Shown here: one piece after another, positions 42,638 to 47,742 of the stretch | Layout: each line of letters begins with the position of its first letter | Numbering within the stretch: the first letter of the stretch is position 1 | NCBI GenBank assembly: GCA_031273455.1 | Contig: JAISRZ010000070.1 | Location: 1 to 64,000 of the forward strand | DNA length: 64,000 bases | DNA from: Deltaproteobacteria bacterium | GTDB taxonomy: Bacteria > Desulfobacterota > Desulfarculia > Adiutricales > Adiutricaceae | Direction: 5' to 3' | Position numbers and translations under genes: made by a program | The notes under the pieces: model-generated | Told to the model about the DNA's origin: nothing | The model's input: only the letters and a program-made list of their open reading frames with translations | The model's database searches: none

Positions 42638-44579
42638 TAAAATCAAGTGGTTACCGCCCTTAACTAGCGAAAATAGCGAGATCCTCGCGTAAGCTAACCT
42701 TCTTTTGATTTTGGTCAATAATATCAATCGATATTATCTAAAAAACACTATAAAATCAGGCGCTTAAGGTCAACCAATTTTTTTAATCGCCCTAGACCAA
42801 CAGCCCAAGACCAACACCATAGCCTAACAGTCCTAGTCCAGACCCGCCGCCATAAATCGTCTAACCTGGGCGATAAGGCCCATCTTCGCCGCTTAAAGCT
42901 CTTCATTAACTAATATTGTAGTCGCAAGCGTTCGCCTTGGGTCAGATAATATCCGCCATAAAATCAAATAGTTACGTCTATCAGGACTTTATTTAACCAC
43001 CGCTATCGACCATCTATCCCAAGATAACCGCCCAACTTTTACCCCGCTCGTCCAAAAATTGACAATCAGTTTTAAAAACTAGCGTAAAATCAATAGGTTA
43101 AGCCCATTAAAAAACTTTGTTGGCCCCGGACCTATCTACCATTTCCCTTTCCGCTCAAAACAGTCAGGTTAAAGTTTTCTTAACCTCAGCTATACCGCCC
43201 AACTGTCAACGCGGTCGTTAGAGTCAGTCTATAGTTATTAAAAATCAGCGTAAAATCAATAGGTTAAGCCCATTAAAAAACTTTGTTGGCCCCGGACTCT
43301 CCTCCACTTCCCTTTCCGCTCAAAACAGTCAGGTAAAAGTTTTCTTAACCTCGACTCGCCCGCCTAACTGTCAAGACGAGCGCCAGAGTCAGTCTATAGC
43401 TACTAAAAATCAGCGTAAAATCAATAGGTTAAGCCCATTAAAAAACTTTGTTGGCCCCGGACTCGCCTCCACTTCCCTTTCCGCTCAAAACAGTCAGGTT
43501 AAAGTTTTCTTATCCTCGACTCGCCCGCCTAACTGTCAAGACGAGCGCCAGGTCGCTCCATATCTTTAAAAATCACCATAAAATCAAGATGTTAAGGCTT
43601 TGTAAAAACAGGATTTTTCAAGACAGCGCTCTCTCCTAATCCGATCCAACTAGCCCGATCCAGCTAGCTAGAGCGCCTTTCTCCTGGCCGCGAAGCGACT
43701 GGCCCTTTTTTTAGGCTTCTAGATTCCGGGGATATCTTCAAAAATGATTATTAAAATCAGGTAATTAGGGCCAGTCAGAGGATTCATTTACCCTAAATCT
43801 AGTTACCAGATCATCCTTAACCACAACCTAGCTAGGACGCCTTACCGTCCGCCGCCAACTGACCGGCCCTTTAAACTAAAGTCGTTGGAGTTGGTCAGTA
43901 TCTCCTAAAACCCTCTAAAATCAAGAGGTTAAGGCTAACAAAATCTTTTGGGGCCCCAGATTTTCCGGCCAAACCAGCCGACTAAAACTAGCTGGTTCTC
44001 GCTCTGGCGACCGACCTTGAGGGCTAGGGCCGTTAGAGTCGGTCGATAGCTTCTAAAATATTATTAAAATCAGTTAGTTATCGTCCAGCGGAGTATTCAT
44101 TCACCCCGGACATAGCCACCTGACCCACCACGACCCAAAAGCGCTCTAAAAGTCCTTAAACCAAGGCCAATTCTTAGCTTTGGCCGGGTTAAACTTGGCC
44201 CGAGGCGGACCAGGGTTAGGCTATTTTTTTTGTCAAAAAAAAGATTAAGGTTTGTTAAAGGACCGTCCGCGATCCACATATCTAATAAACTTCCAAACGC
44301 CTCTAATTTCACCCTCCCCAAAAAATAATTAAAAATTTTTTTCATAATAAAATCAATACGTTAATAAATTTTCTCCACAACAATTCCTGAAAATAAAGTG
44401 AGCTATCGAGCGATAAAGTGAGAATTAGACAGTGTATACCACTCTCAATAACCACTGGCCTTTATGCTCATTCTGTGAAACCCCGCTTAAAAAGCCCTCT
44501 TGAGCCTATTTGGGGGAAGCCTCTAAAAGCTTGAGTTCAAGTCATCTTCAAAAAAATCATTAGTAAAATCAATAGGTTA
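42638..44579 (+). repeat. Twelve-copy TAAAATCAnnnnGTTA array, diverged ~165 bp units
   Basis: Motif copies begin at 42638, 42751, 42959, 43085, 43251, 43416, 43579, 43752, 43916, 44065, 44348 and 44564. All twelve keep TAAAATCA exactly. The last four bases are GTTA in ten, CTTA in one and ATTA in one. Copies at 43085, 43251 and 43416 are identical (TAAAATCAATAGGTTAAGCC) and head near-identical units of about 165 bp. Several copies are preceded by a second AAAATCA about one helical turn (11-12 bases) upstream. All are in the same orientation, reading toward the DnaA-like gene. The pattern is that of protein-binding iterons. Confidence 0.9.
44321..44400. other. AT-rich candidate unwinding element
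   Basis: This is a run of A/T-rich sequence containing poly-A and poly-T tracts, motif copy 44348-44363 and the near-DnaA-box TTCTCCACA. It is the most AT-rich part of the tract and the best candidate for a duplex-unwinding element if this is an origin. Confidence 0.4.
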
Positions 44580-44801: not shown

Positions 44802-46274
44802 ATGGTTACAAACGAAAATGTGCCGGAGATGGATTTTCGCGGGATTGGCGGTCCGGCCTCCGAAGCCGATGACCAGCGGTCTGACGTCCTCGAGGACCGC
44901 TCGGTCGACCCCAATCCCCCGCTCGTCTCCGAAGAAGCCCCCCCATTGACCGATATTTGGGAAGCGGTCAAGGAGGAATTGTCCAAAACTGTGAACGCCA
45001 TGGACTTTAAGGGTTGGATTCAACCCATTAAGGCCCAGTCTAAAGGCCAGTCCCTGGTTTTGGTTTCCCCGAACAAATTTTCCCTGGACTGGGTCCAGGA
45101 TAATTATTTGGCCACGATCACCGAGTTAGTCAGACCAATCCGCTCGGATATCTCGGTGGAACTGATCTTAGATCCCAAAGCCCCCTCGGCCCCGGCCCCG
45201 AAACCCCAGCCTAAGCCGGCGGCTCAACGCGAATCACGGCGTTCCCTAACGCCCCTACGTTTAAACCCGAATTTTTCCTTCGAGGAATTTATCCCGGGCG
45301 ACCCCAACCGTTTACCTTTCGAGGCTTCCCAAGGCTTCGCTCGCGGGGATAATCTCGGCGCGGACATCTTACTCCTTTCCGCTGACCATGGCTTGGGCAA
45401 AACCCACTTGATTCAGGCCGCGGCCCAGAAGTTCAGGGCGCTTAACCCGGGTAAGGTCATTTTTTATTTGAGCGCCGAGCAGTACACCTCCGAGCTGGTC
45501 AGTTCATTAAAGCGCCATAATATTGAGGATTTCAAAAACAAGTACCGCAATTCTTGTGACTTTTTCTTGGTTGAGGAGATTTGCTTTCTCTGCGGCAAAG
45601 CCAAGTTCCAAGAGGAGTTTAATTACACCCTCGATCTCCTGTTAAACCATGGTAAGAAGATTATCCTGACTTCCTCCAAGGATCTTCGCGATATGAACCA
45701 CCTTTGCCCGCCACTCAAAAGCAAGTTGCTGGCGGCTTTACGGACGCCCATTAACCCCCCGGATTTCGAGACTAGGGTGGCCATCCTCGCCCATAAGGCC
45801 CAAAAAAGCGGCTTACGGTTGGAGCGGCCAGTGGTGGAGCTCTTGGCCGAAAAGCTTTTAAACGATGTCCGTCTGCTTGAGGGTTGTCTCATAACCATCT
45901 CCGCCACGAGTCGGTATCTACGGCGTCCGGTTAATATCGAGCTAGCTCGTCAATGTCTGGGCCAGGTTCAAGAGTCCACCAATAACGAGCTGACCTTAGA
46001 CCGGATCATTAAACTGGTCTGCCAGAACTTCCACCTGGAGGAAGCGAAGCTCACCTCCAGTTCCCGGCGCAAATCCGAAAATGAGGCCCGGAGTTTAGGT
46101 ATGTACTTGGCCCGTTGCCTAACGGACAAGACCTTCACGGAAATAGGCGCGGCCTTTAACCGGTCTCACTCCTCGACTATGCGGTCCATCAATCAAGTGA
46201 CCGAGCGTCTGACGCGCGACCAGAAGCTGAAGGATAAGATCGACTTTATAACTGGGCAACTGATCCAGAATTAG
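44802..46274 (+). CDS. Divergent DnaA-like initiator protein
   Basis: The 490-residue protein has DnaA architecture: domain I (about 50-125), Pro-rich linker (126-150), AAA+ domain (155-380) and DNA-binding domain IV (395-490). LSAEQYTSELVSSLK and FKNKYRN align well with DnaA. Key positions differ. Walker A reads ADHGLGKT (194-201), with the first Gly replaced. Walker B reads VEEICFL in place of IDDIQFL. KSKLLAAL (306-313) stands where the arginine-finger SRFxxGL belongs. The domain IV loop FGGRDHTT reads FNRSHSS, one residue shorter and without the base-contacting Asp. The sensor-2 Arg (NDVRLLEG) is kept. ATG follows a TGGTGG site. It is either the working initiator of this lineage with changed specificity or a DnaA paralogue or regulator. 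No dnaN follows. Confidence 0.85.
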   Translation: MVTNENVPEMDFRGIGGPASEADDQRSDVLEDRSVDPNPPLVSEEAPPLTDIWEAVKEELSKTVNAMDFKGWIQPIKAQSKGQSLVLVSPNKFSLDWVQDNYLATITELVRPIRSDISVELILDPKAPSAPAPKPQPKPAAQRESRRSLTPLRLNPNFSFEEFIPGDPNRLPFEASQGFARGDNLGADILLLSADHGLGKTHLIQAAAQKFRALNPGKVIFYLSAEQYTSELVSSLKRHNIEDFKNKYRNSCDFFLVEEICFLCGKAKFQEEFNYTLDLLLNHGKKIILTSSKDLRDMNHLCPPLKSKLLAALRTPINPPDFETRVAILAHKAQKSGLRLERPVVELLAEKLLNDVRLLEGCLITISATSRYLRRPVNIELARQCLGQVQESTNNELTLDRIIKLVCQNFHLEEAKLTSSSRRKSENEARSLGMYLARCLTDKTFTEIGAAFNRSHSSTMRSINQVTERLTRDQKLKDKIDFITGQLIQN

Positions 46275-46360
46275 GCTATCGCCCCTAAACCACCTATCTG
46301 GATCGTTAAAAGGCCCGTCCCGGATTGTTTTTCGCGGGCGTGGCCAAGGATAAAGGCCTC

Positions 46361-46639
46361 ATGGACCGGATCATTGAACTTTTACGCCAGTGCTTCCAAG
46401 TGGAAAAAAGCGAGCTTATCTCAATTTCGCGGCGGAAGTCCTGTCATAAAGCTCGGAGTTTGGGTATGTACTTGGCCCATCGCCTAACGGGCCAGACCGT
46501 AGCGGAAATAGGCGAAGCCTTTAACCGGACCGAAAGCGCGGCTATTCACGCCATTAACCAAGTGGCCGCCCGTTTACCCCAAGACCTGGAACTAAAAAAC
46601 ACGGTGGCCTATTTAACCGGCCAACTACTCCAGAACTAG
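46361..46639 (+). CDS. Stand-alone DnaA domain IV-like protein
   Basis: About 93 residues aligning along their whole length with the last 92 residues of the preceding DnaA-like protein (MDRIIELLRQCFQVEKSEL against LDRIIKLVCQNFHLEEAKL, and identical SRRKS, ARSLGMYLA and TGQL segments). It carries only the DNA-binding domain, with no ATPase. It is evidently a partial tandem duplication that became its own gene. The recognition loop differs from the parent (FNRTESAA against FNRSHSST). ATG 46361 has AAAGG just upstream; TTG 46325 or GTG 46340 are alternatives. It probably competes for, or co-binds with, the upstream protein's sites. It ends 8 bases before hisC. Confidence 0.75.
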   Translation: MDRIIELLRQCFQVEKSELISISRRKSCHKARSLGMYLAHRLTGQTVAEIGEAFNRTESAAIHAINQVAARLPQDLELKNTVAYLTGQLLQN

Positions 46640-46647
46640 GATTCGCC

Positions 46648-47742
46648 TTGAAAGTAACCGATCTGATACCGCCCCGAATCTCTAACTTAAACGACTACGT
46701 CCCGGGTAAACTCGCGGAGGACGTGGCTGAGGAAATGGGGTTAGGGGCGGTCATTAAACTGGCCTCCAATGAAAATTGCTTAGGCCCTTCCCCGTTGGCC
46801 ATTAAAGCCATGACCGCGGCTTTAACGGGTCTAGGGCGTTACGGGGACGCTGACTCACGCCGTTTCCGCCAGGCTTTGGCCGATAAGCTAAAAGCGCCGG
46901 TCAATCAGATCCTGGCGGGGAACGGCTCTTCCGAGTTTATCCTCCTACTTAGCCAGGCTTTACTGAGCCCGGGTCTGAACGCGGTCATGTCTCGGCCTAG
47001 TTTCACCCTTTACGCCTCGAACGCCAAAGCCACCGGGGCCGAGGCCATTGAGGTTCCGGTCACGAAAGGCTATGGGCACGATCTAGAGGCCATGCTCGCC
47101 AAAGTCGACCAGAGAACGAGGCTGGTCTTTCTGGATAACCCCCTTAACCCCACCGGGGCTTGGGTGACCGCCGAAGACTTGACCGCTTTTAGCCAAAAAC
47201 TGCCCGATAACGCTTTACTGTTTTTAGATGAGGCTTACACCGATTATAGCCGTTTACCCCGACCCGATTACTCGGCCCTTTTAGCCACCGGTCGAGTGGC
47301 CATCGCCCGGACCTTTTCCAAGAACTACGGCCTAGCGGGGATCAGGGCGGCTTACCTTTTAGCCAACCCGGATCTGATCCAAGCTTTAAATAAATTTCGC
47401 CAGCCCTTTAACCTCAACCTCTTAGCCCAAGTCGGGGCCACCGCCGCTTTAGAGGACGAAGAGCACCTAATTAACTCCCAAAAAGCCGTTTGGGAAGGAA
47501 TTGATTACTTTAACGCTAAATTACCTCCTTTAGGACTACCCACCCACCCCACTCAAGCTAACTTCATCCTGGCCGGACCCGTGGCCATGGGCGCCGAGGC
47601 CTTAGATAAAGCCCTCTTAAAAAAGGGGTTTATCATCCGCTCGCTCAATTCCTTTGGTTTACCTAACCATGTTCGGATCAGCGTGGGGACCCCGGCGGAG
47701 AACGCGGCCCTAGTCCAAGCCTTGACCCAAATTCTTAGCTGA
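46648..47742 (+). CDS. hisC: Histidinol-phosphate aminotransferase
   Basis: A class I/II PLP aminotransferase that converts imidazole-acetol phosphate to histidinol phosphate in histidine synthesis. It has 364 residues. VIKLASNENCLGPSPLA is the N-terminal substrate lid, FLDNPLNPTG and FLDEAYTDYS are PLP-pocket motifs, and ARTFSKNYGLAGIRAAYL carries the PLP lysine. The start is TTG at 46648 with AGGA upstream. No other his gene is present. It probably shares a transcript with the DnaA-like genes, an unusual pairing. Some HisC proteins also act on phenylalanine or tyrosine. Confidence 0.92.
   Translation: MKVTDLIPPRISNLNDYVPGKLAEDVAEEMGLGAVIKLASNENCLGPSPLAIKAMTAALTGLGRYGDADSRRFRQALADKLKAPVNQILAGNGSSEFILLLSQALLSPGLNAVMSRPSFTLYASNAKATGAEAIEVPVTKGYGHDLEAMLAKVDQRTRLVFLDNPLNPTGAWVTAEDLTAFSQKLPDNALLFLDEAYTDYSRLPRPDYSALLATGRVAIARTFSKNYGLAGIRAAYLLANPDLIQALNKFRQPFNLNLLAQVGATAALEDEEHLINSQKAVWEGIDYFNAKLPPLGLPTHPTQANFILAGPVAMGAEALDKALLKKGFIIRSLNSFGLPNHVRISVGTPAENAALVQALTQILS

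Follow-up and report, generated by a model that had tools for sequence, protein, structure and literature searches.

A free-standing copy of DnaA domain IV with changed recognition residues lies between dnaA and a hisC-like gene in a deltaproteobacterium

Directly downstream of dnaA in the 64,000-nucleotide stretch of DNA analyzed here (the window) is a short open reading frame resembling the end of the initiator itself, and this raises the question of whether it is a functional gene or a relic and, if functional, whether it reads the same DNA sites as DnaA. The host is, judging from isolate naming, probably a termite-gut lineage near Candidatus Adiutrix. The frame (positions 46361 to 46639; this and all other window features are on the + strand) runs from ATG to TAG with 92 codons plus the stop, coding for 92 amino acids, and an alternative in-frame TTG start at 46325 would add 12 residues. 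Bac_DnaA_C (PF08299) is its sole Pfam match (E=1.8e-16, 60.3 bits against a gathering cut-off of 31.5, profile positions 2 to 69 of 69), with neither an ATPase nor a domain I found in that search, and the initiator model TIGR00362 aligns residues 2 to 88 with profile positions 349 to 436 at 55.6 bits against a cut-off of 343.9, with AAA+ domain III absent. The product is a member of the DnaA domain IV superfamily and not a DnaA initiator, and its first-pass description as a stand-alone domain IV lacking the ATPase holds.

The adjacent dnaA gene (positions 44802 to 46274) codes for a 490-residue protein with domains I, III, and IV (Pfam DnaA_N, Bac_DnaA, and Bac_DnaA_C) and is the sole full dnaA in the genome (TIGR00362, 353.6 bits, over the cut-off). 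A genome search places domain IV in this gene and in the copy and nowhere further, and a single-protein scan of the genome contigs gives no match. The parental segment (positions 45996 to 46274) aligns without gaps to the copy with a period of 365 bp, and by BLASTP 50 of the 92 residues (54%) are identical to parent residues 399 to 490 (E=2e-31), bearing out the earlier claim of an end-to-end match of about 93 residues. The two DNA segments are 70.6% identical (dN 0.30, dS 0.70); duplication during assembly is ruled out as a source because the two differ by ∼29 to 30%, a divergence at which the match reflects neither chance nor artefact. A mobile-element or phage origin is likewise rejected, with tblastn searches of phages and plasmids giving only distant DnaA-like matches (29 to 39% identity) and a PHROGs search giving no match. 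We note separately that the arginine-finger motif, LRSRF in canonical DnaA, is LKSKL in this DnaA (positions 44802 to 46274, residues ∼301 to 310) and LKSK, LRSK, or LKSR in congeners, and that the residues flanking the Walker B acids vary within the genus (EE, EA, and ED), together hinting at altered control of the DnaA ATPase in the genus.

Phylogenetic reconstruction groups the copy and its parent as sisters with strong support from DNA (100/99) and somewhat less from protein (88/79), and the copy branch is ∼4-fold longer than that of the parent. The stand-alone copy is present in 1 of 37 family genomes, being absent from all six congeners and from 30 further genomes of the family, and the conservation in relatives on which the first-pass annotation had proposed to check it thus finds no relative with the gene. 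Our phylum-wide domain list comprises the strong matches listed, and rare short stand-alone copies may occur elsewhere. All six congeners have the dnaA-hisC order without the copy, with the two genes separated by 17 nt (G006) or 23 nt (G005) or overlapping (G003), and no second domain IV lies in the longer intergenic stretches (251 nt to 1.04 kb) of G004, G001, and G002; a protein search of the 1.04-kb gap of G002 reveals no remnant of the copy. The sister grouping with its own parent and the absence from congeners together indicate that the copy is a lineage-specific tandem partial duplication that postdates the split from the sampled congeners, in agreement with the partial tandem duplication first proposed from the sequence. 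Extension of the duplicated unit beyond domain IV is not significant (downstream flank likeness is suggestive, P 0.06; upstream, P 0.43); flanking homology has eroded and the ends of the unit can no longer be fixed. A second stand-alone candidate, in genome G040, was discarded: this degenerate Bac_DnaA_C fragment (L168, positions 2461 to 2736; a 108-residue open frame scoring 32 bits) lies by ruvB-like and ruvA-like genes and not near dnaA, and is an independent relic of a detached domain IV.

The duplicate could be a decaying, functionless remnant that by luck has yet to acquire a stop codon or frameshift, and its restriction to one species, its evolution at ∼4 times the parental rate, and the loss of key functional residues (see below) would all fit such decay. 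Branch codon models give an omega of 0.43 to 0.65 for the copy with four- and six-sequence sets, indistinguishable from 1 (omega=1 not rejected; LRT, 0.2 to 1.5), and a value of 4.3 with a three-sequence set, where the estimate is unstable; decay is therefore compatible with the codon model taken alone. Neutral evolution was also simulated from a reconstructed parsimony ancestor for this one strain, using a simple mutation model with four settings and 1,500 copies each. Approximately 20 to 25% of neutral copies remain stop-free, which also favors decay, but the family score and codon usage of the copy are retained far beyond the neutral-drift prediction. A domain HMM score as high as that of the copy is reached, given the estimated 49 changes, in 0.1 to 0.8% of simulations that remain free of stops (6 to 8% if 37 changes are assumed), codon usage as host-like in 0.07 to 0.5%, and the two jointly in 0 of 1,500 simulations under each of the four settings. 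The second codon positions are the least changed (10.6 of 49). Further arguments against decay are the lack of any indel relative to the parent across 92 codons, and the placement of a start codon and Shine-Dalgarno-like element exactly at the domain boundary. We therefore consider decay unlikely, and the copy is probably not a plain decaying fragment, still resembling a translated gene.

The immediate surroundings are consistent with expression. The 86 bp that separate the copy from dnaA (positions 46275 to 46360) form a spacer, for which homology to the parent's flanks is not demonstrable and which contains the Shine-Dalgarno-like AAGGA at 46346 to 46350, 10 nt ahead of the ATG, and the hisC-like aminotransferase gene (positions 46648 to 47742), an ancestral neighbor of dnaA, starts 8 nt past the copy's stop. 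With this element before the ATG and hisC so close behind, it is plausible that dnaA, the copy, and hisC are coexpressed in a single operon.

If it is translated, the copy is predicted to keep the domain IV fold: its AlphaFold model is confident (pLDDT 95.6, pTM 0.87) and superimposes on the box-bound structure of E. coli domain IV (1J1V) with a Z score of 18.0 and an rmsd of 0.9 A over 91 residues. The DNA-reading surface is another matter. E. coli DnaA contacts bases through residues 399, 423, 432 to 435, and 438 to 439 (PMC5043019; PMC7561715). We compared the copy with 107 other DnaA domain IVs, including those of the genus, using E. coli numbering. The recognition loop is RSHSSTMRS in the parent and RTESAAIHA in the copy, confirming the different loop seen at first pass, with His to Glu at 434 and Ser to Ala at 436. 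Position 434 is His in 106 of the 107 others and Arg in one, and position 436 is Thr in 104 and Ser in 3. The lone exception at 434 is the DnaA of G004 (L047, positions 210 to 1718), which reads GRTRTTAYNS. At 415, Arg or Lys in 106 of 107 is replaced by His. Asp433 is Thr in the copy and Ser in the parent, Ser435 of the copy is common among DnaAs, and position 439 is His in the copy and Arg in the parent, which has itself drifted at 433 and 439 while retaining His434. The base-reading set of R399, R432, D433, H434, T435, and H439 is thus incomplete in the copy (433 D to T, 434 H to E), and the net charge declines from +5 to +3. Conversely, R399, R407 (present in 107/107), R432, M411, T418, I425, G426, and F429 are all kept. 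Because the near-invariant residues 434, 436, and 415 are changed, and 434 is a documented base contact, the reading of DnaA sites is the function most likely to have been lost or altered. Retention of the fold core with loss of base-reading residues would also suit a protein that does not bind DNA and acts through contacts that domain IV makes with other proteins, e.g., by decoying a regulator of DnaA; however, the kept R399, R407, and R432 would be needless in a pure protein decoy, and we regard this role as quite improbable.

Whether the copy shares DNA targets with DnaA also bears on a motif array upstream of dnaA (positions 42638 to 44579), composed of 12 TAAAATCANNNNGTTA motifs (10 exact and 2 with one mismatch) ∼165 bp apart, and presumably the array to which the first-pass annotation assigned the copy as a dedicated binder. 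Three motifs are within recognizable 165-bp tandem units, and elsewhere little beyond TAAAATCANNNNGTTA is conserved. There are 33 exact TAAAATCANNNNGTTA sites in the host genome compared to 2 for the reversed control, and the motif is overrepresented against this control in all seven genus genomes and uncommon in other genomes of the family, with an extended form nearly confined to the genus. The regions upstream of dnaA in congeners (G001, G002, G005, and G006) have at most one site, allowing up to one mismatch. Within 2 kb 3′ of mnmG there are two or three sites with no more than one mismatch in six of the seven genomes (L161, L162, L164, L165, L166, and L167; at most 0.06 expected), the contig of the seventh being too short to judge. 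The mnmG flank is a classical position for replication origins, which makes an initiator-site role plausible, and TAAAATCANNNNGTTA is a plausible candidate for an origin element or initiator site particular to the genus. None of the five genus genomes tested, the host among them, has a canonical TTWTNCACA box upstream of dnaA. GC skew in the window has no switch at dnaA, and dnaA was set aside as the replication origin; around mnmG the skew is uninformative.

The copy could, then, be an ATPase-less competitor or marker on the sites of DnaA, in the array or at the origin, blocking or nucleating the initiator. Its proximity to a large motif array, the shared fold, the kept R399, R407, and R432, and the His at 439 where the parent has Arg are in keeping with this, but the base-contacting His434 has become Glu, Thr436 has become Ala, position 415 is no longer occupied by a basic Arg or Lys, and the net charge has fallen, whereas His434 is kept by all congener DnaAs but one. 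Moreover, with TAAAATCANNNNGTTA genus-wide and the copy in one species, the copy cannot be a general reader of the motif. We regard competition at DnaA sites as improbable, and of the first-pass interpretation the stand-alone domain IV, its local duplication, and its intact, gene-like character stand, while the proposed binding to the same array is not supported. A broader scenario, in which the DnaA of the genus moved to TAAAATCANNNNGTTA as a new target and, in this one species, the 12-copy array and the detached domain IV emerged jointly to form a new circuit of titration and counter-regulation for initiation, seems to us very improbable.

The residue changes on its recognition surface favor a different role for the copy over competition at DnaA sites. 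With its origin, intact frame, changed residues, and fast evolution established, our leading if tentative explanation is that the copy is a young, neofunctionalizing helix-turn-helix (HTH) protein, coexpressed with DnaA and no longer reading the DnaA site. In this view, the 3′ end of dnaA was tandemly duplicated once the species had diverged from the sampled congeners, and a separate domain IV came to lie between dnaA and hisC. The copy has its ATG, and an element resembling a ribosome-binding site, at the edge of the domain, and its translation probably accompanies that of DnaA. It would retain the HTH fold and, with R399, R407, and R432, part of the DNA-gripping surface, with the recognition helix changed (434 H to E, 436 T to A) and the basic 415 lost. 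We infer that such a protein is expressed and selected, and it may serve as a small DNA-binding accessory whose specificity departs from that of DnaA and whose production keeps pace with that of DnaA and HisC. Counted against this explanation are that omega=1 is not rejected, that the copy evolves ∼4 times as fast as its parent, and that it is absent from every relative; in addition, the simulations hinge on the parsimony ancestor, and the altered target is deduced from residue changes, no such site having been found. If it is correct, the DNA-binding domain of an initiator has been caught budding off beside its parent, with the fold kept and base reading changed, and, should the copy be expressed, the case would illustrate a route by which regulators of replication could arise from DnaA. 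The genus-wide TAAAATCANNNNGTTA may, in turn, point to a changed initiator-site code.

Several small proteins limit DnaA, including SirA, YabA, Soj, and SeqA, although none of them is known to be a duplicate of DnaA domain IV, and antagonism would be a candidate role for the copy described here. We found no description of a stand-alone domain IV beside dnaA in the literature searched, but the initial impression of novelty was too strong, as this kind of protein, a domain IV standing alone, is not new and is already modeled in NCBIfam. NF004686 and NF004687 (PRK06030) describe 140- to 151-residue "hypothetical proteins" that, like the copy, are a stand-alone DnaA_C without the ATPase; the copy is not a member, scoring 31.1 bits, far under the curated cut-off of 148. 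The PRK06030 proteins are, we presume, alphaproteobacterial, and the copy differs in being an independent and recent duplicate beside its own parent. In comparison with DnaA domain IV itself (PF08299; 1J1V, 3PVP), the fold, length, R399, R407, R432, and hydrophobic core are common to the copy, which differs in being free-standing, in lacking the ATPase and domain I, and in its Glu434 and Ala436, neither of which is seen in the 107 other DnaAs. The REP-associated HuH transposases have a Bac_DnaA_C-like C-terminal extension, and their flanking repeats, the authors note, are unlike DnaA boxes, such that the extension may have either a new target or no target at all (PMC6006769). The extension and the copy are both domain IV-like HTH modules detached from the DnaA ATPase, the former fused to a transposase and the latter free and adjoining dnaA.
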